Shown one piece after another: positions 53,736 through 63,456 of a DNA stretch of 64,000 nucleotides (the stretch's first letter is position 1; every line of letters begins with the position of its first letter). This DNA is from Saccharopolyspora erythraea NRRL 2338 (GTDB lineage: Bacteria; Actinomycetota; Actinomycetes; Mycobacteriales; Pseudonocardiaceae), in assembly GCF_000062885.1 (NCBI RefSeq), contig NC_009142.1, positions 7,677,584-7,741,583 of the forward strand, written 5' to 3'. The notes below the pieces were generated by a model that was not told the DNA's origin, ran no database searches, and saw only the letters and a program-made list of their open reading frames with translations. The translations under genes and the position numbers were made by a program.

Positions 53736-55406
53736 TCAGCCGTGCAGTGCGCCGCGCACCGCGGCGTGCAGGCGCTCGTGCACGCCGCGCAGCTCGGCGC
53801 GGTCGGCGCGGACCTCGACCACGCGCAGCCCGGGACGCCGGCGCAGCGCGACGCCGAACTCCGAGCGCTGCCGCACCACGGTGTGCTCGACGCCGTGGGC
53901 CGCGCAGAGGCTGCCGATGTCGGTGCCGTGCGGGGTGCCGAAGACCCGCTCGAAGGAGCCGCGGTGTTCGGGACTTCCCTGCTCCAGCAGGGAGAAGATG
54001 CCGCCGCCGTCGTCGTTGAGGACCACGATCGTCAGGTCCGGGCGCTGTTCCTGCGGGCCGAGCATGAGCCCGTTGCTGTCGTGCAGGAACGTCAGGTCGC
54101 CGAGCAGCGCGTAGGACGGGCCGCCGTGCGCCAGCGCGGAACCGATCGCCGCGGACACCGTGCCGTCGATCCCGGCCACGCCGCGGTTGCGGTGCACGAC
54201 GACGTCCGGTCGGTGGTTCGCGGCGAGGGCGACGTCGCGCGTCGGGTTCGAGGAGCCCAGCACCAGCAGCGAACCCGCCGGAAGGGCGTCGACGACGTCG
54301 CGGGCGACGACCGGCCCGTTCGGCCACCGCTCCAGGTCCAGCGCCGCGTGCAGGGCCGCCGACGCCTTCTGGTCGGCCTGCTGCCAGCCGGTCAGCCAGT
54401 CGGGGTCGGCGGGTCCCGGCGAGGCGCCGAAGGTCTCGGCGACCTCCCGCACGTTGTGCGCGGGCGTCGGCCAGTGCGAGCCGCCGTGGGCCAGCAGGAC
54501 CTCGACCTCGGAGTCGGCGAGCAGGCTCTGCACCTGGCGGAAGACCGTGTTGCGGCCCACGCACAGCACCTGCTCGGGGCGGTGGTCGCGCATGAAGCCG
54601 GGCAGCTTGAGCAGCCACATGCCGGTGCTGATCGCGGCCGCGCCGGAGAGCCCGACACCGCCGGTCTCCGACAGCACCGGCCAGCCGTACCGCTCGCCCC
54701 AGGCGCTCGCGCTATCGGCGCCGCCGTCGGCGACCAGGACCAGACCGCGGCGCGACCGCACCTTCGACAGCGTGCTCGGCGCGCTCTCGTTCCCGGAGAC
54801 CTCGGTCCAGCGCTGCCCGTCGGCCCGCCCGTCCAGCGGCTCGCACCAGTCGCGGTCGCCGCTGGGCACCAGCGGCTCCCGGAACGGCAGGTTCAGGTGC
54901 ACCGGGCCGCCCCAGGTGGTGCCGGCTGCCATCGACGCCGCCCGGCACACCTGGGTGCGCCAGTAGGCGTTCTGGCCGGGCCGGTTCTCGGCCACCGCGA
55001 GCTCGTCGAACAGCCGGACCTCGGTGCCGTAGAGCCGGTACTGGTCGATCGTCTGGTTCGCGCCAGCGGCCCGCAGCTCGGGCGGGCGGTCGGCGGTCAG
55101 CACGATCAGCGGGATCCCCGCGTGACACGCCTCGCTCACGGCCGGATGCAGGTTCGTCGCCGCGGTACCCGAGGTGCACACCACGACCACCGGGCGCCGC
55201 GTGCGGGTGGCGATGCCCAGCGCGAGGAACCCGGCGCTGCGCTCGTCGATGCGTACGTGCAGATCGAGCCTGCCCGCCTCGGCGGCGTCGTGCAGAGCGA
55301 AGGACAGGGGTGCGTTGCGGGACCCCGGGGCCAGCACCACCTGGCGCACCCCGTTGCGGACGAGCTCGTCGACGAGGACCTCGGCCTGGGCCGTGGACGG
55401 ATTCAA
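53736..55406 (-). CDS. menD: SEPHCHC synthase MenD
   Basis: Thiamine-diphosphate enzyme that joins 2-oxoglutarate and isochorismate, the second step of menaquinone synthesis. The product is 556 aa. It shows VVLAPGSRNAPLSFAL, RIDERSAGFLALGIA (with the catalytic Glu), VVVCTSGTAATNLHPAV, RNRGVAGIDGTVSAAIG, LLGDLTFLHDSNGL and the cofactor motif NDDGGGIFSLLEQ. The start is TTG 55406 (LNPSTAQAEVL), which aligns with the mycobacterial MNPST start; GTG 55451 is the longer alternative. It is divergent from menB. Confidence 0.95.
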   Translation of the reverse strand: MNPSTAQAEVLVDELVRNGVRQVVLAPGSRNAPLSFALHDAAEAGRLDLHVRIDERSAGFLALGIATRTRRPVVVVCTSGTAATNLHPAVSEACHAGIPLIVLTADRPPELRAAGANQTIDQYRLYGTEVRLFDELAVAENRPGQNAYWRTQVCRAASMAAGTTWGGPVHLNLPFREPLVPSGDRDWCEPLDGRADGQRWTEVSGNESAPSTLSKVRSRRGLVLVADGGADSASAWGERYGWPVLSETGGVGLSGAAAISTGMWLLKLPGFMRDHRPEQVLCVGRNTVFRQVQSLLADSEVEVLLAHGGSHWPTPAHNVREVAETFGASPGPADPDWLTGWQQADQKASAALHAALDLERWPNGPVVARDVVDALPAGSLLVLGSSNPTRDVALAANHRPDVVVHRNRGVAGIDGTVSAAIGSALAHGGPSYALLGDLTFLHDSNGLMLGPQEQRPDLTIVVLNDDGGGIFSLLEQGSPEHRGSFERVFGTPHGTDIGSLCAAHGVEHTVVRQRSEFGVALRRRPGLRVVEVRADRAELRGVHERLHAAVRGALHG

Positions 55407-55531
55407 CCCATCACCCCTGAAAATCGCTTGCGGTCGGCGGTCAGACGTCACCCCGGCCGCCGGCCCGGCAGGCCCCGAGGCGGTGCGGGCGGGCCCGTGC
55501 CCCGGTGCTTGCTGGGCCTATTGTCCCAGGT

Positions 55532-56455
55532 GTGCAGAATCCGCGTGTCTCTGAGCTGTTCGATCCGGTCGTGTGGGAGCCCGTGGACGGCTTCGACTTC
55601 ACCGACATCACCTACCACCGCTGCGTCGAGGACGGACCTGGGAAAGGCACCGTACGCATCGCCTTCGACCGCCCGGAAGTCCGCAACGCGTTCCGCCCGC
55701 ACACCGTCGACGAGCTCTACCGCGCGCTGGACCACGCGCGGATGACCAGCGACGTCGGCTGCGTGCTGCTGACCGGCAACGGACCGTCGCCCAAGGACGG
55801 CGGCTGGGCGTTCTGCTCCGGCGGTGACCAGCGCATCCGCGGCCGTTCGGGCTACCAGTACGCCGACGGTGAGACTTCCGACACCGTCGATCCGGCGCGG
55901 GCGGGGCGGCTGCACATCCTCGAGGTGCAGCGGCTGATCCGGTTCATGCCCAAGATCGTCATCGCGGTGGTGCCGGGGTGGGCGGCCGGTGGCGGGCACA
56001 GCCTGCACGTGGTGTGCGATCTCACGCTGGCCAGCGCCGAGCACGCCCGGTTCAAGCAGACCGACGCCGACGTCGGCAGCTTCGACGGCGGGTTCGGGTC
56101 GGCGTACCTGGCCCGCCAGGTGGGGCAGAAGTTCGCGCGGGAGATCTTCTTCCTCGGCCGCCCCTACACCGCAGAACAGGCTTTCCGGATGGGCATGGTC
56201 AACGAGGCCGTGCCGCACGAGGAGCTGGAGGCGACCGCCCTGCAGTGGGCCCGCGAGATCAACGGCAAGTCGCCGACCGCCCAGCGGATGCTCAAGTACG
56301 CGTTCAACGCCATCGACGACGGCCTGGTCGGCCAGCAGCTCTTCGCGGGCGAGACGACCCGGCTGGCCTACATGACCGACGAAGCCGTGGAGGGCCGCGA
56401 CGCCTTCCTGCAGAAGCGCGACCCCGACTGGTCGTCCTTCCCCTGGTACTACTGA
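55532..56455 (+). CDS. menB: 1,4-dihydroxy-2-naphthoyl-CoA synthase MenB
   Basis: Crotonase-fold enzyme that closes the naphthalene ring of menaquinone from o-succinylbenzoyl-CoA, 307 aa. Motifs are RPEVRNAFRPHTVDELYRAL, WAFCSGGDQRIRGRSGYQY, GWAAGGGHSLHVVCDLTLAS and DADVGSFDGGFGSAYLARQV. The C-terminus ends in DPDWSSFPWYY, typical of MenB. GTG 55532 is the first good start. It shares a 125-bp divergent promoter region with menD. Confidence 0.96.
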   Translation: MQNPRVSELFDPVVWEPVDGFDFTDITYHRCVEDGPGKGTVRIAFDRPEVRNAFRPHTVDELYRALDHARMTSDVGCVLLTGNGPSPKDGGWAFCSGGDQRIRGRSGYQYADGETSDTVDPARAGRLHILEVQRLIRFMPKIVIAVVPGWAAGGGHSLHVVCDLTLASAEHARFKQTDADVGSFDGGFGSAYLARQVGQKFAREIFFLGRPYTAEQAFRMGMVNEAVPHEELEATALQWAREINGKSPTAQRMLKYAFNAIDDGLVGQQLFAGETTRLAYMTDEAVEGRDAFLQKRDPDWSSFPWYY

Positions 56456-56518
56456 TCGGTGCTAATAGCGCCTGGTCGCACTGCGCGCCGACCAGCGGCC
56501 AGTGCGCGTGAATGCCCG

Positions 56519-56554
56519 CTCGTGGCCGTCGGAGGCATCGCCGTCGGCCACGAG
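56519..56554. terminator. hairpin between menB and the Uma2 gene
   Basis: A 10-bp perfect stem CTCGTGGCCG/CGGCCACGAG (56519-56528 with 56545-56554) lies between the convergent menB and Uma2-type genes. A weaker 7-bp stem (CGCACTG/CAGTGCG) precedes it. Confidence 0.55.
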
Positions 56555-56601
56555 AGGTGTCGCTCGGCACGCGTGGCGGTGCCCACACCGGGCCGTGGAT
56601 G

Positions 56602-57234
56602 TCAGCGCGGCTGCGGTGGCAGCAGCTCCTTCGGATCGAACGACACCGGGAACGGGTACTCGATCTCGAACCGCGAACCCGCCCCGGCGACGGCGACCTC
56701 GACGTAGTGGTCGATGTCGAGCGCGAACAGCTTGACCTCCGAGCGGACCTGCGACCGGCGGACCTCGACCTCCATGAAGTAGGGGATCTTCGCCGCCGCG
56801 CACAGCGCGGGCTTGTCGATGCGGTCCTTGCGGCGGCTCGACGGCGAGACGAACTCGACGGGCATCAGCACCTGGTCGGTCGGGACCCAGACGTCGACAT
56901 CGGGCTCGGGAAGCGACTTGACGATCGTCAGGGTCGGCTGGATCCACCGCTTCGGCGAGAAGGCGACGTTGACGGTCAGGCAGGCGAGGAAGCCGGCCTC
57001 TTCCGCAGGCGGGGCCAGGATCCGGTTCAGCTTCCCCGCCGCGTAGGAATTGGCCGACGACTCGTACGGACTCACGATCAGTCTTCCGTCCAGGCACTCG
57101 TACTTCACCGCGGGCATGCCCGGGATGGGCAGGTACTGCTCGGCGAGATCCGTGGTCCAGGTGCCTGCGAGGTCGACCAGCGGGTCGAACGGGGCCTGCG
57201 AAGGATCGTGGTAGGCCGGTGCCGCCAAGGTCAT
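56602..57234 (-). CDS. Uma2-family (DUF820) restriction-endonuclease-like protein
   Basis: PD-(D/E)xK-fold protein of 210 aa. Recognisable features are KYECLDGRLIVSPYESSANS, LPEPDVDVWVPTDQVLMPVE (candidate catalytic Asp and downstream acidic residue), EFVSPSSRRKDRIDKPALCA and KIPYFMEVEVR. Family members are abundant, often solitary, and of uncertain role; some are thought to be mobile or DNA-processing nucleases. ATG 57234 follows GAGG. It interrupts the otherwise co-directional menB-menE-menA run on the opposite strand. Confidence 0.85.
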   Translation of the reverse strand: MTLAAPAYHDPSQAPFDPLVDLAGTWTTDLAEQYLPIPGMPAVKYECLDGRLIVSPYESSANSYAAGKLNRILAPPAEEAGFLACLTVNVAFSPKRWIQPTLTIVKSLPEPDVDVWVPTDQVLMPVEFVSPSSRRKDRIDKPALCAAAKIPYFMEVEVRRSQVRSEVKLFALDIDHYVEVAVAGAGSRFEIEYPFPVSFDPKELLPPQPR

Positions 57235-57354
57235 CACCTCAATCTCCTCTCCAAGCGTACTCAGCAACACCATCGCCGCAGGGGCTCGAATTCTTGAGCG
57301 AACTCACTCGAACGCGTGGTCGATGATTTCGCCTGGTGCGCGGCGTCGCCGAGA

Positions 57355-58536
57355 ATGAGCGCCATGCCGAGCCCACGTGTCATCGAGCCGCTGGTCGTGC
57401 CCGCCGGAAGGCGTGCGCCGGAGGTGCTGCCCGCGCTGCGGAAGGCGCTCGACGGGGACGGTCCGGCGCTGCTGCCGGTGGCCGAGGGTTCCGAGCCGGT
57501 GCGGGCGCTGGGGCCCGGCGCCGCGCTCGGGCCGGGTGAGGACACCGCCGGCGACCCGACCGCGCTGGTCATCGCCACCTCCGGTTCGACCGGCGTGCCG
57601 AAGGGCGTGCTGCTGCCCGCTTCGGCGCTGCGCGCCTCCGCCGAGGCGACGCACCTCCGCCTCGGCGGTCCCGGGCACTGGCTGCTGCCGATGCCCGCGC
57701 ACCACATCGCGGGCATACAGGTACTGGTCCGCGCTCTGCTGGCCGGGACGACGCCGGTGGCGGTCGACACCGCGGGCGGCTTCCGGCCCGACCGCTTCGC
57801 CGATGCCGCCGCGGAGACGCTGGCGAACGACGGCCCGCACTACACCTCCATGGTCCCGACGCAGCTCAGCCGCCTGGTCAACGACGGTGGGCAGGGGCTC
57901 GCCGCGCTGCGCCGGTTCGACGCCGTGCTGCTCGGCGGGGCGGCGACGCCTCCCGCGCTGCTGCGGCGGGCCCTCGACGCGGGGGTGCGCGTGGTGCCGA
58001 CGTACGGCATGAGCGAGACGGCCGGCGGCTGCGTGTACGACGGTGTGCCGCTGGACGGCGTGCGCGTGCACATCGACGCAGGCGGCGTGGTGTCGCTGGC
58101 CGGGCCGACCCTGGCCAGGGGCTACCGGGGCGTGCCCGGGTCTCCGGCGTTCGCGGGCGGCTGGTTCCGCACCGGTGACCTCGGCCGCTGGGCGGGCGAC
58201 CGGCTGGAGATCCTCGGCCGGGCCGACGACGTGATCATCACCGGCGGGGTCAACGTCGCACCGACGCCGATCGAGCGGATCCTCACCGAGCACGAGGGCG
58301 TCCGCGAGGTCTGCGTGCTCGGCGTGGAGGACCCCGAGTGGGGCCAGGCGGTGGTCGCGGCCGTGGTGCCCTCCGACCCGGCGTGCCCGCCGTCGGCGGA
58401 GGCGTTGCGCGCGGCGGTCCGCGAGCGCGCCCAGCCCGCGGCGGCGCCGAAGAACATCGTCTTCCTGCCGGAGCTGCCGTTGCGCGGCCCCGGCAAGCCG
58501 GACCGGACCGCCCTGCGGCAGCACTTCGCCGGCTAG
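57355..58536 (+). CDS. menE: o-succinylbenzoate-CoA ligase MenE
   Basis: ANL-family ligase that activates o-succinylbenzoate with ATP and CoA for menaquinone synthesis. The product is 393 aa, short as in other actinobacteria. Motifs are the P-loop ATSGSTGVPKGVLLP, PTYGMSETAGGCVYDG, FRTGDLGRW, GRADDVIITGGVNVAPTPIE and the C-terminal GPGKPDRTAL with the catalytic Lys. ATG 57355 was chosen; ATG 57364 is equally possible. menA follows 127 bp downstream. Confidence 0.93.
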   Translation: MSAMPSPRVIEPLVVPAGRRAPEVLPALRKALDGDGPALLPVAEGSEPVRALGPGAALGPGEDTAGDPTALVIATSGSTGVPKGVLLPASALRASAEATHLRLGGPGHWLLPMPAHHIAGIQVLVRALLAGTTPVAVDTAGGFRPDRFADAAAETLANDGPHYTSMVPTQLSRLVNDGGQGLAALRRFDAVLLGGAATPPALLRRALDAGVRVVPTYGMSETAGGCVYDGVPLDGVRVHIDAGGVVSLAGPTLARGYRGVPGSPAFAGGWFRTGDLGRWAGDRLEILGRADDVIITGGVNVAPTPIERILTEHEGVREVCVLGVEDPEWGQAVVAAVVPSDPACPPSAEALRAAVRERAQPAAAPKNIVFLPELPLRGPGKPDRTALRQHFAG

Positions 58537-58663
58537 AGCCGGATGGTTCGGCCTGTTCAGCGGCCCGCTCCGGCGAAATCCAACCACCGCACCGCACCCG
58601 CTTCCCGCCCCGCTCGGGGAGGCTCGGGCCGGCCGTCCGAAAGCGTGAGCGAAGATGGCTCAC

Positions 58664-59542
58664 ATGGCGACTGTCGCGCAGTGGATCGAAGGCGCTCGGA
58701 TCCGCACCTTCCCGAATGCGATCGCACCCGTGCTCGTCGGCACCGGCGCCGCGGCGGGCATCGACGAGTTCGACCCGGCGATCGCGGTACTGGCACTGGC
58801 CGTGTCGATGCTGCTGATCATCGGCGTGAACTTCGCCAACGACTACTCCGACGGCATCCGCGGTACCGACGCCGACCGGATCGGGCCGTTCCGCCTGGTC
58901 GGTTCCGGCGCGGCCGAGCCGGGCGCGGTGCGCACCGCCGCGTGGGTGTGCTTCGGCCTGGCGGCCCTGGCCGGCATCGGGGTCGTGGTCCTCAGCGGCC
59001 AGTGGTGGATGCTCGCTCTCGGCGCGCTGTGCATCGCCGGGGCGTGGTTCTACACCGGCGGCAGGAAGCCCTACGGCTACGCCGGGCTCGGCGAGGTCGC
59101 CGTCTTCCTGTTCTTCGGGGTGATCGCGGTGCTCGGGACCCAGTTCGCCCAGGCGGCCGGCGTCACCGGCTTCGGCATCGGAGCCGCGGTCGCGATCGGC
59201 TCGTTCTCCAGCGCGGTGCTGGTCGCCAACAACCTGCGCGACATCCCGACCGACCGGACCACCGGCAAGCGCACGCTGGCGGTGCTGCTCGGCGACCGCG
59301 ACACCCGCACGCTCTACGTGACCCTGGTGCTGGTGCCGTTCCTGATCACGGTGCTCATCGCGCTGCGCAACACGTGGGCGCTGCTGGGCTTCCTGGCGCT
59401 GCCGCTGCTGGTCACCTCGCTGCGCGCGGTGCTGACCGGGGCCAAGGGGCGCAAGCTGATCCCGGCGCTGCGCGACACCGGATTCGCGATGCTGCTGTGG
59501 GCGGTGGCCACCGGCATCGCGTTCGCCCTCGGCCAGGGCTGA
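58664..59542 (+). CDS. menA: 1,4-dihydroxy-2-naphthoate polyprenyltransferase MenA
   Basis: Integral membrane prenyltransferase that attaches the polyprenyl tail to dihydroxynaphthoate, 292 aa with about eight transmembrane helices. The first Asp motif is NDYSDGIRGTDADRIGP and the second is NNLRDIPTDRTTGKRTLAV. AGAWFYTGGRKPYGYAGLGE is typical. ATG 58664 (MATVAQWIEGARIRTFPNAI) aligns with the mycobacterial start; ATG 58655 is in frame upstream. Its allylic substrate is probably supplied by the synthase at 24752-25786. Confidence 0.95.
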   Translation: MATVAQWIEGARIRTFPNAIAPVLVGTGAAAGIDEFDPAIAVLALAVSMLLIIGVNFANDYSDGIRGTDADRIGPFRLVGSGAAEPGAVRTAAWVCFGLAALAGIGVVVLSGQWWMLALGALCIAGAWFYTGGRKPYGYAGLGEVAVFLFFGVIAVLGTQFAQAAGVTGFGIGAAVAIGSFSSAVLVANNLRDIPTDRTTGKRTLAVLLGDRDTRTLYVTLVLVPFLITVLIALRNTWALLGFLALPLLVTSLRAVLTGAKGRKLIPALRDTGFAMLLWAVATGIAFALGQG

Positions 59543-59602
59543 GGGACAATGGGCGGCGCGCGGCGGCCTGCCGCGCCGCCCAGCGGCAGGAGATCACCCA
59601 CA

Positions 59603-60433
59603 TTGTCCGAACAGCCCGCGACCACCGACCGCGCGGACCTGCGGGCCGACTGCGCGAGCTGCTTCGGGCTCTGCTGCGTCGCGCTGCCCTTCGCGAAGTC
59701 GGCGGACTTCGCCGTGGACAAGGTGGCCGGGTCGCCCTGCTCGAACCTGCTCGCCGACTACCGCTGCGGCATCCACGCGAACCTGCGCGAGCGCGGCTTC
59801 CCGGGCTGCACCGTGTTCGACTGCTTCGGCGCAGGCCAGAAGGTCTCGCAAGTCACCTTCAGCGGACGTGGCTGGCGCGAGGACCAGAGCACCGCGCGGC
59901 GGATGTTCGGCGTGTTCCCCGTCATGCGCCAGCTGCAAGAGCTGCTCTGGTACCTGACCGACGCGCTCGCCCGCACCGAGACCCGCGAGATCCACGACGA
60001 CCTGCGGCGTCGGCTCGACGAAGTCGAGCGCCTCACCCGCGGCAGCGCCGACGAGCTGGCGGAGGTCGACGTCGCCGGGGTGCGCGCGGAGGTCGACGAG
60101 CTCCTGCTGCGCACCAGTGAGCTGGTGCGTTCGAAGTTCCCGGGGCGCAGGAAGAACCGCCGCGGCGCCGACCTCATGGGTGCCAAGCTCAAGGGCGCGG
60201 ACCTGCGCGGGTCGAAACTGCGCGGTGCTTACCTCATCGCGGCCGACCTGCGCGGCGCGGACCTGCGCGGCTCCGACCTGATCGGGGCCGACTTCCGCGA
60301 CGCCGACCTGCGGGGCGCCGACCTCACCGGGAGCATCTTCCTCACCCAGGCGCAGGTCAACGCAGCCAAGGGCGACGCGGCCACCAGGATCCCGCCGGCG
60401 CTGAGCCGGCCCGCGCACTGGCAAGGTTCCTGA
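59603..60433 (+). CDS. Cys-rich N-terminal domain fused to pentapeptide-repeat protein
   Basis: The product is 276 aa from TTG 59603, which follows AGGAGA; ATG 59549 is an upstream alternative. The N-terminal 75 residues hold eight Cys (17, 20, 24, 25, 46, 55, 69, 74) in CASCFGLCC and later positions, resembling YkgJ-type metal-binding domains. A helical linker follows (about 95-180). A C-terminal run of about ten pentapeptide repeats of the A(D/N)LRG type (GADLRGSKLRGAYL, GADLRGSDLIGADF) should form a right-handed beta-helix. It is 60 bp downstream of menA in the same direction. The function is unknown. Confidence 0.8.
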   Translation: MSEQPATTDRADLRADCASCFGLCCVALPFAKSADFAVDKVAGSPCSNLLADYRCGIHANLRERGFPGCTVFDCFGAGQKVSQVTFSGRGWREDQSTARRMFGVFPVMRQLQELLWYLTDALARTETREIHDDLRRRLDEVERLTRGSADELAEVDVAGVRAEVDELLLRTSELVRSKFPGRRKNRRGADLMGAKLKGADLRGSKLRGAYLIAADLRGADLRGSDLIGADFRDADLRGADLTGSIFLTQAQVNAAKGDAATRIPPALSRPAHWQGS

Positions 60434-60445
60434 CCCGGACAGCGA

Positions 60446-60477
60446 AGCGGCCCCGGAACACGCGTTCCGGGGCCGCT
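60446..60477. terminator. terminator after the pentapeptide gene
   Basis: A perfect 14-bp stem (60446-60459 with 60464-60477) with a 4-base loop lies between convergent genes, 12 bp after the pentapeptide-repeat stop. Confidence 0.85.
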
Positions 60478-61001: not shown

Positions 61002-61430
61002 TCACCGCAGGAACGAGTCCGGCGGCTCGTCGTCGTAGCCGTCGTCCGTGGCGGCGTGGGGGTCGGAGTTGATGACCGTCGCGACGTCGTGGCCCTCGTC
61101 GAGCAGTTCCTTGGCCTTCCGCATGTTGGCGATGCCGGCGGCGAACGCGGCCTGGACCGACTCGTCGTGCAGCGCCGTACCGTCGGCGACATCGTTCCAG
61201 GTCAGCTCGCCGGCGTCGATGCGTTCCTGCAGGGCGGCCAGCTCCGCGGGCGCCCTGCCCTCGCGGATGAGCCGCTCGATCTCGGAGATCTTGTCCTCGG
61301 TCAGCCTGACCTCGGGCAGTGCGGCGCTGAGCCGCTCGGCCTTCGCCATCGCCTCCTCGACCTGGCGCATGCGCTCCTCGACCATGTCGCGCGCCGCCCG
61401 GATCTCGGGGGTCAGCATGTCTTCGCTCAC
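61002..61430 (-). CDS. small coiled-coil protein of the type VII-like cassette
   Basis: Not recognised. The product is 142 aa, acidic and helical, from GTG 61430. The first 60 residues form heptad-like helices (MVEERMRQVEEAMAKAERLS). The centre carries AELAALQERIDAGELTWNDV. The tail is acidic (DDGYDDEPPDSFLR). There is no signal peptide or membrane helix. It starts 21 bp after the WXG protein gene. A chaperone-like or partner role is possible but only from position. Confidence 0.65.
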   Translation of the reverse strand: MSEDMLTPEIRAARDMVEERMRQVEEAMAKAERLSAALPEVRLTEDKISEIERLIREGRAPAELAALQERIDAGELTWNDVADGTALHDESVQAAFAAGIANMRKAKELLDEGHDVATVINSDPHAATDDGYDDEPPDSFLR

Positions 61431-61451
61431 GTCTTCTCCCGCTCGGGTGCG

Positions 61452-62345
61452 CTAGAGGGTGCCCGCGGCCGCTGTCCGGTAGCCGGAGCCGTTCTGACCG
61501 GAGGAACCGGAGGAACCGGAGGAACCGGAGGAACCGCCGGAGATGGTGCTGCGCGTCTCGGTCGTGCTCGTCCTGACCTGCTTCGCGGAGTCGCGGACAC
61601 CGGTTGCCCCGTCGCGGACCGCGGTGGCGTCGTCCTTGATGCCGATCGCGAGGTTGACCGCGTCGCCGAGGCTGTTGACCTCCTTGATCTTGGACAGGTT
61701 CGTCCCCGCGCTCCTGATGCTGTCGACCAGCGCCACGACCGCCTCGTACATCGCGGTCAGCGCTTCGTAGAGCTCGATCACGGTCATCACGATGCTGACG
61801 CAGCGCTCGACCTGCCGGACCGCGTTCGCCCAGCCCGCGACCGGGATCCAGCCGGTGGCCGCGGTCTCGATCAGCCGGTCGACCAGCTTCTTGATCAGCT
61901 CCAGCGCCTTGTCGGTCATCCGCCGCGACATGTCGGCGGCCTTCTGGAAGCCCTGGCCGATCAGCCGGGCCAGCAGCGCGTCGCCCTCCAGCGCCACCGT
62001 CCAGGTCCCGACGAGCATGCCCTCGAACGCGATGGCCCCGGCGCCGTCCCAGCTCTCGCGCAGCTCGCTGATGCCCGCGTTGAGGTTCGTGCGGATCGCC
62101 GAGAGCGCCTCGCCGACCTGGCCCCACGCCTCGGCGTTGACCTCGATCCTGGAGAAGTCACCGGTGATCGGCGCGATCAGCGACTCGATCAGGTTCTCGC
62201 CGGTGACCTTCTCGTACACCCAGTTGACCGCCTGCACCTGCCATCCGGCGTCCTCGACCGCGGCGTCGAGCGCATCGGCGTTGCTCTTGGTCGGATCGGC
62301 TTCCAGCAGCGCGATCGGGTCTTCCTCGTCCGCGAACGCCCCCAT
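61452..62345 (-). CDS. WXG-motif helical protein, probable type VII secretion substrate
   Basis: The product is 297 aa and almost entirely helical. A W-x-G turn occurs at residues 99-101 (ESWDGAGAIAFEGM), as in WXG100/ESX proteins, here inside a longer protein. Hydrophobic helices in the middle (GWIPVAGWANAV and IVMTVIELYEALTAMYEAVV) could insert into or touch membranes. The C-terminus is a Ser/Gly repeat. ATG 62345 lies 12 bp after the EspC-like gene. No toxin domain is visible. Confidence 0.72.
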   Translation of the reverse strand: MGAFADEEDPIALLEADPTKSNADALDAAVEDAGWQVQAVNWVYEKVTGENLIESLIAPITGDFSRIEVNAEAWGQVGEALSAIRTNLNAGISELRESWDGAGAIAFEGMLVGTWTVALEGDALLARLIGQGFQKAADMSRRMTDKALELIKKLVDRLIETAATGWIPVAGWANAVRQVERCVSIVMTVIELYEALTAMYEAVVALVDSIRSAGTNLSKIKEVNSLGDAVNLAIGIKDDATAVRDGATGVRDSAKQVRTSTTETRSTISGGSSGSSGSSGSSGQNGSGYRTAAAGTL

Positions 62346-62357
62346 GTCGAAATCCCC

Positions 62358-62687
62358 TCAGACCTTCATCTTGTCGAGATCGGCCTCGATCGCACGCAGC
62401 ATCTCGACCATCCGCTGTTCGCGCTGTTCGTACTCGGCGGATGTGTTCCCCAGCTCTTCCTTGACCTTCATGAGCGCCGAACGCGCGAAGTCGAGGGTTT
62501 CGCCGTAGAGGGCCGTGACGCCCTCGACGACCGGGACCAGCACCGTCATCAGGCCGGTGAAACCGCTGGTGTTCGACGCGGTGCTCTCCGCCCACGCATC
62601 GATTTCGGTGAAATGGTTCGCATTCCGTTCGAGGAGCCCTGCGAACCCCCTCAGCTCCTCCGGAACCGCCTTGAGACTCCCGGCCAT
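62358..62687 (-). CDS. EspC-like small type VII secretion protein
   Basis: The product is 109 aa with two helices, of the size and pattern of EspC-type (DUF2580) ESX-associated proteins: ELRGFAGLLERNA, SGFTGLMTVLVPVVEG in the turn region, then a long C-terminal helix. A type VII export signal Y-x3-E lies at Tyr86-Glu90 (YEQRE). ATG 62687 follows GGGAGG. It leads a four-gene leftward cassette; its pairing with the WXG protein is inferred. No EccC or other secretion ATPase is in the window. Confidence 0.75.
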   Translation of the reverse strand: MAGSLKAVPEELRGFAGLLERNANHFTEIDAWAESTASNTSGFTGLMTVLVPVVEGVTALYGETLDFARSALMKVKEELGNTSAEYEQREQRMVEMLRAIEADLDKMKV

Positions 62688-62828
62688 CGCGCCTCCCGAC
62701 CCGCTTTCCAAGCCAGGCGGTCCCGCCCTCCGGTACCGCCGGAGGTATGACAGCAGCACCGTGCGAACCGGTTCTCGGAAACCGGCAATAGTGTTCAAGC
62801 TGTGACATCCGAGGGAGGGCACTCGCCC

Positions 62829-62849
62829 GAAAAGCCCCTTTCCCGGGGC
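62829..62849 (-). terminator. terminator after the lipoprotein gene
   Basis: A GCCCC/GGGGC stem (62834-62838 with 62845-62849) with a 6-base loop. Read leftward it is followed by TTTTC. It begins 7 bp beyond the lipoprotein stop. Confidence 0.7.
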
Positions 62850-62856
62850 GAATCCG

Positions 62857-63456
62857 TCAGCGCGCCAGCGCACCCAGCACGTACTGCGCCACCGCCTGCG
62901 CGGTGTCGCACTGCTCCGCGTCGGCCTCGCCCGCGCCCACCACGACCTGCAACGTGGCCCCGGGCAGCGCCGCGAAGACCGTGCAGTCGTTGGCGTGCAG
63001 CGTCTGCTCGCCCTGCGCCGAACCCAGGTTCACCGGCGTGGTGCCGAGTTCGGCGTAGCCCTCGGGCTGCGCGGCGACGAGCACCGACTGGTCGCCGGTG
63101 CGCGCCTGGTAGGAGCAGCCCCGCGCGGGCGGGTCGAAGCCGACCTCGCGCGCGGTCCCCGGTTCGACGGGGAACGCCAGCCGGGCCAGCTCGTCCGGGC
63201 TCACCAGCCCGCACAGCTCGTTCGTCGGGATGGCGGTGAGCGGACGCCGCTGCTCCGGCGGCAGGTCGCGGGTGATCGACGGCGTCACCGACTCCGACGA
63301 GGTCTCATCGGACGTCGTCGCCGCGGGCGGCCGGCTCGGCGCACCGGGCTCCCCGCCGGGCGCGCAGCCCGCCACCGCCAGGCCCAGCACCGGGGCCAGG
63401 GCGAGCAACTTCGGCCCGCTGCCGGGCCTGCGCTGGACGAACCTCGGACACCGCAT
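62857..63456 (-). CDS. DUF3558-type lipoprotein
   Basis: Predicted envelope lipoprotein of 199 aa. A basic, hydrophobic signal ends in the lipobox AVAGC, with Cys31 as the lipidated residue. A Ser/Thr/Pro-rich spacer (about 32-65) precedes the domain with NELCGLVSPDELARL, PPARGCSYQARTGDQ, ANDCTVFAALPGATLQV and EQCDTAQAVAQYV. The four Cys and this pattern fit DUF3558, common near type VII genes in Pseudonocardiales. The role is unknown. Confidence 0.82.
   Translation of the reverse strand: MRCPRFVQRRPGSGPKLLALAPVLGLAVAGCAPGGEPGAPSRPPAATTSDETSSESVTPSITRDLPPEQRRPLTAIPTNELCGLVSPDELARLAFPVEPGTAREVGFDPPARGCSYQARTGDQSVLVAAQPEGYAELGTTPVNLGSAQGEQTLHANDCTVFAALPGATLQVVVGAGEADAEQCDTAQAVAQYVLGALAR

Follow-up and report, generated by a model that had tools for sequence, protein, structure and literature searches.

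In Saccharopolyspora erythraea NRRL 2338, a gene lying close behind menA on the same strand encodes a protein in which eight cysteines precede a run of pentapeptide repeats. This locus raises two questions: what the cysteine-rich part does, and whether the position beside menA bears on it. Throughout, the window refers to the whole stretch of 64,000 nucleotides that was analysed (NC_009142.1, positions 7,677,584 to 7,741,583).

Results

Gene, reading frame and layout

The features assigned at the locus are as follows.

59545–59550, plus strand: GACAAT, resembling a promoter -10 element and starting two bases past the stop codon of menA
59588–59592, plus strand: Shine-Dalgarno-like AGGAG, seen in the sequence ten bases ahead of the TTG
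59603–60433, plus strand: coding sequence of 276 amino acids in an open frame with a TTG start (Cys8His1 module, helical domain and pentapeptide beta-helix)
59651–59824, plus strand: cysteine-rich module, residues 17–74 (C17, C20, C24, C25, C46, C55, H58, C69, C74), invariant and of fixed spacing
59885–60133, plus strand: helical domain, residues about 95–177, AlphaFold2 pLDDT mostly above 90
60152–60337, plus strand: predicted pentapeptide beta-helix, residues about 184–245, 12 pentapeptides in three coils (PF00805; AlphaFold2 pLDDT about 90)
60338–60424, plus strand: C-terminal cap, residues 246–274, delimited by residue conservation
60446–60477, no strand assigned: strong GC hairpin of 14 pairs, after the stop codon and before a convergent minus-strand ORF

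An initial annotation of this DNA had placed cysteines at residues 17, 20, 24, 25, 46, 55, 69 and 74, and these are exactly their positions in the translation. It had also put the gene 60 bp after menA, correctly: menA (58655–59542, identified by a match to TIGR00751 at E = 7e-87) ends 60 bases before the TTG. Although the reading frame stays open upstream as far as an ATG at 59549, the AGGAG ten bases ahead of position 59603 favours the TTG there as the start. Beyond the stop codon, the segment 60434–60490 folds at -34.7 kcal/mol (z = -4.6), and the hairpin within it is a possible terminator; it has no T run and is absent from the list produced by a terminator scan. Further downstream on the minus strand, three consecutive ORFs span 61002–62873; the second of them matches WXG100 below threshold (E = 0.00014; 22.5 against a cut-off of 27.3 bits). 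We take this group to resemble those linked to ESX-type secretion.

An invariant module in two phyla

Homologues with the same three-part layout were found in Actinomycetota and Bacillota, some of them on plasmids. A search with residues 1–180 recovered the gene in 29 of 41 relatives of the window genome and in 16 of 296 genomes across the phylum, the window genome being counted in both, as well as in 48 of 79 relatives of a Paenibacillus (among them two weak places, G481 and G485, and one broken, G500). The broken homologue (G500:C23:93448–93917) lies in three pieces with stops and is probably a decaying copy or the product of sequencing errors. Moreover, a pattern scan of species genomes returned at least 550 stretches encoding a relative (two may come from a single gene), and the best 80 loci, many of them from Streptomyces, were carried forward. 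In a plasmid collection 18 records carry the gene, some of chromosome size, with hosts including Priestia, Bacillus badius, Paraclostridium, Clostridioides and Macrococcoides. Where these plasmid records are annotated, the protein is named 'pentapeptide repeat-containing protein'. None of 49 pattern matches in viral contigs was a relative, none was found in phage records, and PADLOC gave no match.

In total 192 proteins were reduced to 150 distinct rows by merging those identical over the first 170 residues. Left out of this count were weak or partial second places in three genomes (G314, G303 and G325), the three weak or broken Paenibacillus places above and 25 further strong Bacillota places without a locus, one of which (G471) has an internal TAG. 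All eight cysteines and His58 are present in 150/150 rows, the window protein included, and the ligand spacing C-x2-C-x3-CC-x20-C-x8-C-x2-H-x10-C-x4-C is identical in every one. Eighty rows (L048–L127) had been fetched with patterns that contain cysteines, and therefore conservation was counted separately for the others: each cysteine and His58 is kept in 70/70, again with the window protein counted. The least alike pair among the 150 rows shares 29% identity over residues 13–180. Invariance extends to Phe36, Lys40, Gly65, Gly68, Gly76 and Gly78; Asp16 and Gln79 are each kept in 149 rows, and a conserved GAGQ stretch follows C74.

The cysteines had been proposed to form a metal site, a reading that depended on their conservation in homologues, and the counts confirm that conservation. 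Because homologues in two phyla keep all eight, the layout is more than chance. Since the eight cysteines and His58 are invariant at unchanging spacing, the module is likely, judging from these alignments, to be a metal or Fe-S site.

On a midpoint-rooted FastTree tree, the 30 Bacillota rows (the label of the Paenibacillus relatives was assigned by us) and the 120 Actinomycetota rows separate with two label changes; one long-branch actinobacterial row, L017, is placed among Bacillota. Two homologues, from records labelled Kibdelosporangium aridum (L062) and Rhodococcus rhodnii (L073), differ hardly at all (branch lengths 0 and 0.032), which suggests a recent transfer, or else a mislabelled or contaminated assembly.

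The pentapeptide repeats are already known; the Cys8His1 domain matched no curated model when scanned against Pfam and NCBIfam. Across 44 members no Pfam model exceeded its cut-off for the cysteine module. Stray sub-cut-off matches at E ≤ 10, each in one or two members, were to chlorite dismutase, P-II, CHAD, FUSC, S4_2 and DUF7548, with a best E of 0.0065. Likewise, an NCBIfam scan of 23 N-terminal domains (E ≤ 10) gave only three stray single-member matches. Comparison of the module with the sequences of solved structures gave no convincing match, the best being the P-II protein GlnB-2 (E = 0.077). A literature search by title and start of abstract found no paper on a Cys8His1 pentapeptide family.

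Likeness to PF03692 and FliB

The module and PF03692 (YkgJ) share an order of motifs: C..C...CC, C..L, C.IH and C in the module, and C..C..CC, C..L, C.IY and C in PF03692, one member of which (L189) has C.IH as in the module. They differ in that the module has one residue more before CC, putting C20 out of register, and in that its spacing is fixed where that of PF03692 varies. C74, Lys40 and GAGQ are extras of the module.

The PF03692 model itself matched 0/44 members at E ≤ 10 and none of the 41 relatives' genomes at E ≤ 0.001, though 29 of these carry a Cys8His1 protein. It does work within the phylum, with matches in 44 of 396 genomes. Three genomes (G092, G124 and G189) hold both, and there the PF03692 matches listed lie on other contigs than the Cys8His1 protein. 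Profile comparison of the module with PF03692 by hhalign gave probabilities of 20–26%, with P of 0.0007–0.0011 in local and 0.0068 in global mode. The lowest value (0.00071) came from only 29 aligned columns around C46–C69. In the best alignment (P of 0.0011) C17, C24, C25, C46, C55 and C69 fall on cysteines and H58 on tyrosine, while C20 is one residue out and C74 is without a partner. Full column shuffles never reached the PF03692 score (0/100 and 0/60), and shuffles in which the cysteines were kept did so in 5/100 and 0/60. As a positive control, the YcgN and YkgJ (PF03692) profiles gave P of 0.00012. YcgN was also tried as a bridge to PF03692, with a negative outcome: the module scored 8.9 against YcgN relatives, a value equalled or exceeded by 58 of 60 shuffles. 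The PF03692 profile searched against solved structures gave a best E of 0.52. Thus the profile likeness between the module and PF03692, at P of about 0.001, is suggestive, and we consider a working likeness of the module to PF03692-type cysteine clusters probable.

Experimental work exists on FliB of Salmonella, which has the motif CX4CX3CC and eight conserved cysteines and binds one [4Fe-4S] cluster that is lost in a quadruple cysteine mutant (PMC8598068). The likeness to the module consists of an N-terminal motif ending in CX3CC and eight conserved cysteines in both. The motifs, CX4CX3CC in FliB and CX2CX3CC here, were likened from their description rather than by sequence comparison, and the window gene has no flagellin context, unlike FliB. 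FliB is the best experimental guide found to the chemistry of the module.

Helical domain, beta-helix and cap

The initial annotation had described a helical linker followed by repeats, and both are recovered. AlphaFold2, run on the full-length protein (the window protein with 48 of the best 80 loci), predicts confident helices at residues 95–122, 125–145 and about 157–177 and a confident beta-helix, and Pfam assigns the repeats to PF00805 (71.8 bits against a cut-off of 20.2, in two stretches), with PF13576 also above its cut-off. The annotation's figure of about ten repeats was slightly low, as 12 pentapeptides can be counted by eye at residues about 186–245. PF00805 matches 40 of the 44 members at E ≤ 10, with a best E of 7.7e-28; in NCBIfam the window protein matches nearly only pentapeptide families, all under their cut-offs.

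The structure prediction that had been called for thus resolved the helices and the beta-helix with confidence and left the cysteine part at low confidence. Residues 1–75 had pLDDT below 50 in the full-length model, and residues 29–71 stayed below 50 when the N-terminal part was modelled from 80 sequences (the window protein and 79 others). Foldseek comparison of this N-terminal model with the PDB gave a best E of 0.69. In a second structure comparison the highest Z was 8.2, for a designed helical protein, and this match has no evidential value.

The model of the beta-helix and cap (residues 182–272) has the form of a right-handed quadrilateral beta-helix. Its top structural matches are designed pentapeptide solenoids (Z up to 15.9), with Z of 12.8–14.7 to MfpA chains and 13.7 to Alr5209. 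On residues 93–184 of MfpA (6zt4 chain B) it superposes with Z of 14.7, an rmsd of 2.1 over 89 residues and 35% identity. Among the cap residues, F246, Q251, G257, T261, P270 and W273 are each conserved in 144 or more of 146 rows.

Since 146/150 rows retain the beta-helix, it matters to most members. In three proteins (L011, L014 and L015) the sequence stops behind the helical domain, and none of the frames of that strand encodes repeats further on. They form one group with support of 99 inside the Actinomycetota rows, and loss of the beta-helix in this lineage is suggested by the tree. A fourth short protein, L038, breaks off earlier, after 143 aa and about 100 bases short of the end of its contig. 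Because three rows are without it, the beta-helix appears to be an accessory that is dispensable in some members.

Genomic context and upstream region

Upstream in the window lies a men cluster (53736–58536) of a menD-like gene on the minus strand, a menB-like gene and an AMP-binding menE-like gene, followed by menA; the names come from Pfam matches. A putative Uma2-family nuclease on the minus strand (56602–57273; PF05685, 45 bits against a cut-off of 27) interrupts the cluster.

The adjacency to menA had been thought to hint at a functional link. We searched for menA by tblastn (E ≤ 1e-8, identity above 30%) in flanks of 8 kb (L048–L127) or about 5 kb (L128–L166) where the contig allows, some being shorter, and of 119 other loci only one had it near the gene. 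This locus (G296) is from a sister species, the only other member of the genus in the genome set, where the gap is 64 bases by the same measure and menE, menB and menD are nearby, as in the window. Two further Saccharopolyspora loci (L071 and L072) have no menA within 8 kb on each side. Other men-type matches in the flanks are confined to one menB-like (31%, L112) and one menE-like (45%, L162). Moreover, neighbouring ORFs of at least 100 aa within 4.5 kb were clustered for 68 of the 119 loci. Apart from the gene itself and frames overlapping it, the most frequent family, an ABC-type ATPase judging from its sequence, reaches no more than 9/68. Eight plasmid neighbourhoods showed no common partner by eye.

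The GACAAT between menA and the gene recurs elsewhere in the family. GA[CG]AATG occurs within 320 bases before the first cysteine in 35 of 120 loci. Of 115 GC-rich loci, 22 have GACAATG upstream, where 0.77 would be expected; many of the loci are from related Streptomyces and thus not independent. Nearly all loci with GACAATG lack menA. The motif has the look of a -10 element belonging to the family itself and would be a candidate promoter; a sigma-70 consensus scan listed nothing. The 119 upstream regions were scanned for regulator patterns (sigma-R, IdeR, Zur, LexA, Rex, SoxR, FurA-type and others), and none stood clearly above shuffled sequence. An inverted repeat over the leader, GGACAATG/CATTGTCC, was considered as a regulatory hairpin and rejected, as by eye the pairing is not kept in all loci; its left arm is the shared -10-like element and its right arm the TTG start and a serine codon. 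The link to menA is not supported, because menA is found at 1 of 119 loci, no neighbour is widely shared and a promoter-like element lies in between. The adjacency looks like a local accident.

Discussion

The reading that we prefer, and to which we give an even chance, is that the gene encodes a stand-alone, soluble cytoplasmic metal protein, probably of the Fe-S type, which uses its beta-helix for dimerisation or docking and is not a partner of MenA. The cysteine module would carry a metal centre with redox activity, for which a single [4Fe-4S] cluster bound by CX2CX3CC in the manner of FliB is the likeliest candidate, and the remaining cysteines and His58 would be further ligands or redox or catalytic residues. 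The protein would then work as a redox enzyme or sensor, in the cytoplasm since no hydrophobic leader is visible by eye. The beta-helix and cap would serve dimerisation or the docking of a partner, and could be lost without losing the core. Dimerisation through the cap is proposed because other pentapeptide proteins do so, QnrB1 and AlbG dimerising through a C-terminal helix (PMC8145042).

Whether the metal need be iron is the point on which the strongest competing explanation turns. In this explanation the module would bind structural zinc in two sites that share the eight cysteines and His58, and the protein would be a scaffold or protein-interaction factor without a redox role. Nine ligands suit two tetrahedral sites, invariance and fixed spacing are what would be expected of a zinc module, and motifs like those of PF03692 have been credited with chelating either zinc or iron (PMC8598068). 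Against zinc, the closest experimentally studied motif that we found, that of FliB, binds a [4Fe-4S] cluster (PMC8598068), and the invariant Lys40, Gly76 and Gly78 may mean more than a structural role. By analogy with FliB, an Fe-S centre seems more likely than zinc, and we hold the zinc scaffold as a possible but doubtful alternative. The analogy could be carried further, to a FliB-like [4Fe-4S] enzyme that modifies proteins and whose beta-helix positions the substrate. The eight conserved cysteines, the CX2CX3CC start and the conserved GAGQ after C74 would fit such an enzyme, and FliB itself uses its [4Fe-4S] cluster together with SAM (PMC8598068). No match to a FliB-named NCBIfam model was obtained with the window protein and 23 N-terminal domains, in a library that may hold none; no SAM motif is visible by eye and there is no partner gene. 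We judge such an enzyme improbable.

Two further explanations start from the repeats and from the neighbourhood. Pentapeptide proteins can mimic DNA, as had been pointed out for this gene, and the protein might be an MfpA- or Qnr-type protector of gyrase or topoisomerase with an added cysteine domain. The superposition on MfpA agrees with this, with designed solenoids scoring slightly higher, as do the many Streptomyces among the best 80 species-genome matches and the 18 plasmid-collection records. DNA-mimicking pentapeptide proteins are acidic, and the gyrase-binding MfpA (complex 6zt5) has a longer beta-helix; MfpA is not known to us to carry such a cysteine module. The right-handed beta-helix formed by the 12 C-terminal pentapeptides is a feature in common with PF00805 proteins, and the window protein differs from others in that its beta-helix has only three coils, is near neutral and lies behind the Cys8His1 module and helical domain. 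The net charge of the beta-helix averages +0.2 over 146 rows (range -5 to +4) and is +4 in the window protein, as calculated from the sequences of this family. Mimicry of gyrase-bound DNA is unlikely because of the three coils and the near-neutral charge. Moreover, the NCBIfam MfpA and Qnr models score 28.5 and 23.6 bits against cut-offs of 360 and 240, no neighbour is widely shared among 68 loci, and L011, L014 and L015 do without the beta-helix altogether. We therefore regard a gyrase-protecting role as improbable too. Least credible of all is a partnership with MenA in which the protein would serve menaquinone biosynthesis as a redox regulator or as a scaffold. The same-strand gap of 60 bases, repeated at 64 bases in the sister species with men genes nearby there too, is set against the absence of menA from the flanks of 118 of 119 other loci, including L071 and L072, and a promoter-like element between the two genes that is common to loci without menA.

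Returning to the stand-alone metal protein, a more specific version is that Cys8His1 defines a new family of Fe-S or metal-cluster proteins, remote kin of YkgJ and FliB. Its members would be enzymes or sensors that respond to oxygen or redox state, with a beta-helix on which the substrate docks and is positioned or through which the protein dimerises. We offer this version tentatively. The functions of proteins with the pentapeptide beta-helix fold are mostly unknown, and the words iron and zinc are absent from the main text of a review on them (PMC8145042).

In summary, nine strictly invariant residues that are likely metal ligands lie in a domain whose protein is annotated by its repeats, and spectroscopy is directly applicable to these residues. 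If the proposal is true, this would be the first pentapeptide repeat protein with a metal cofactor known to us. Moreover, should the site be of the Fe-S type, the pentapeptide beta-helix would be tied to redox chemistry.
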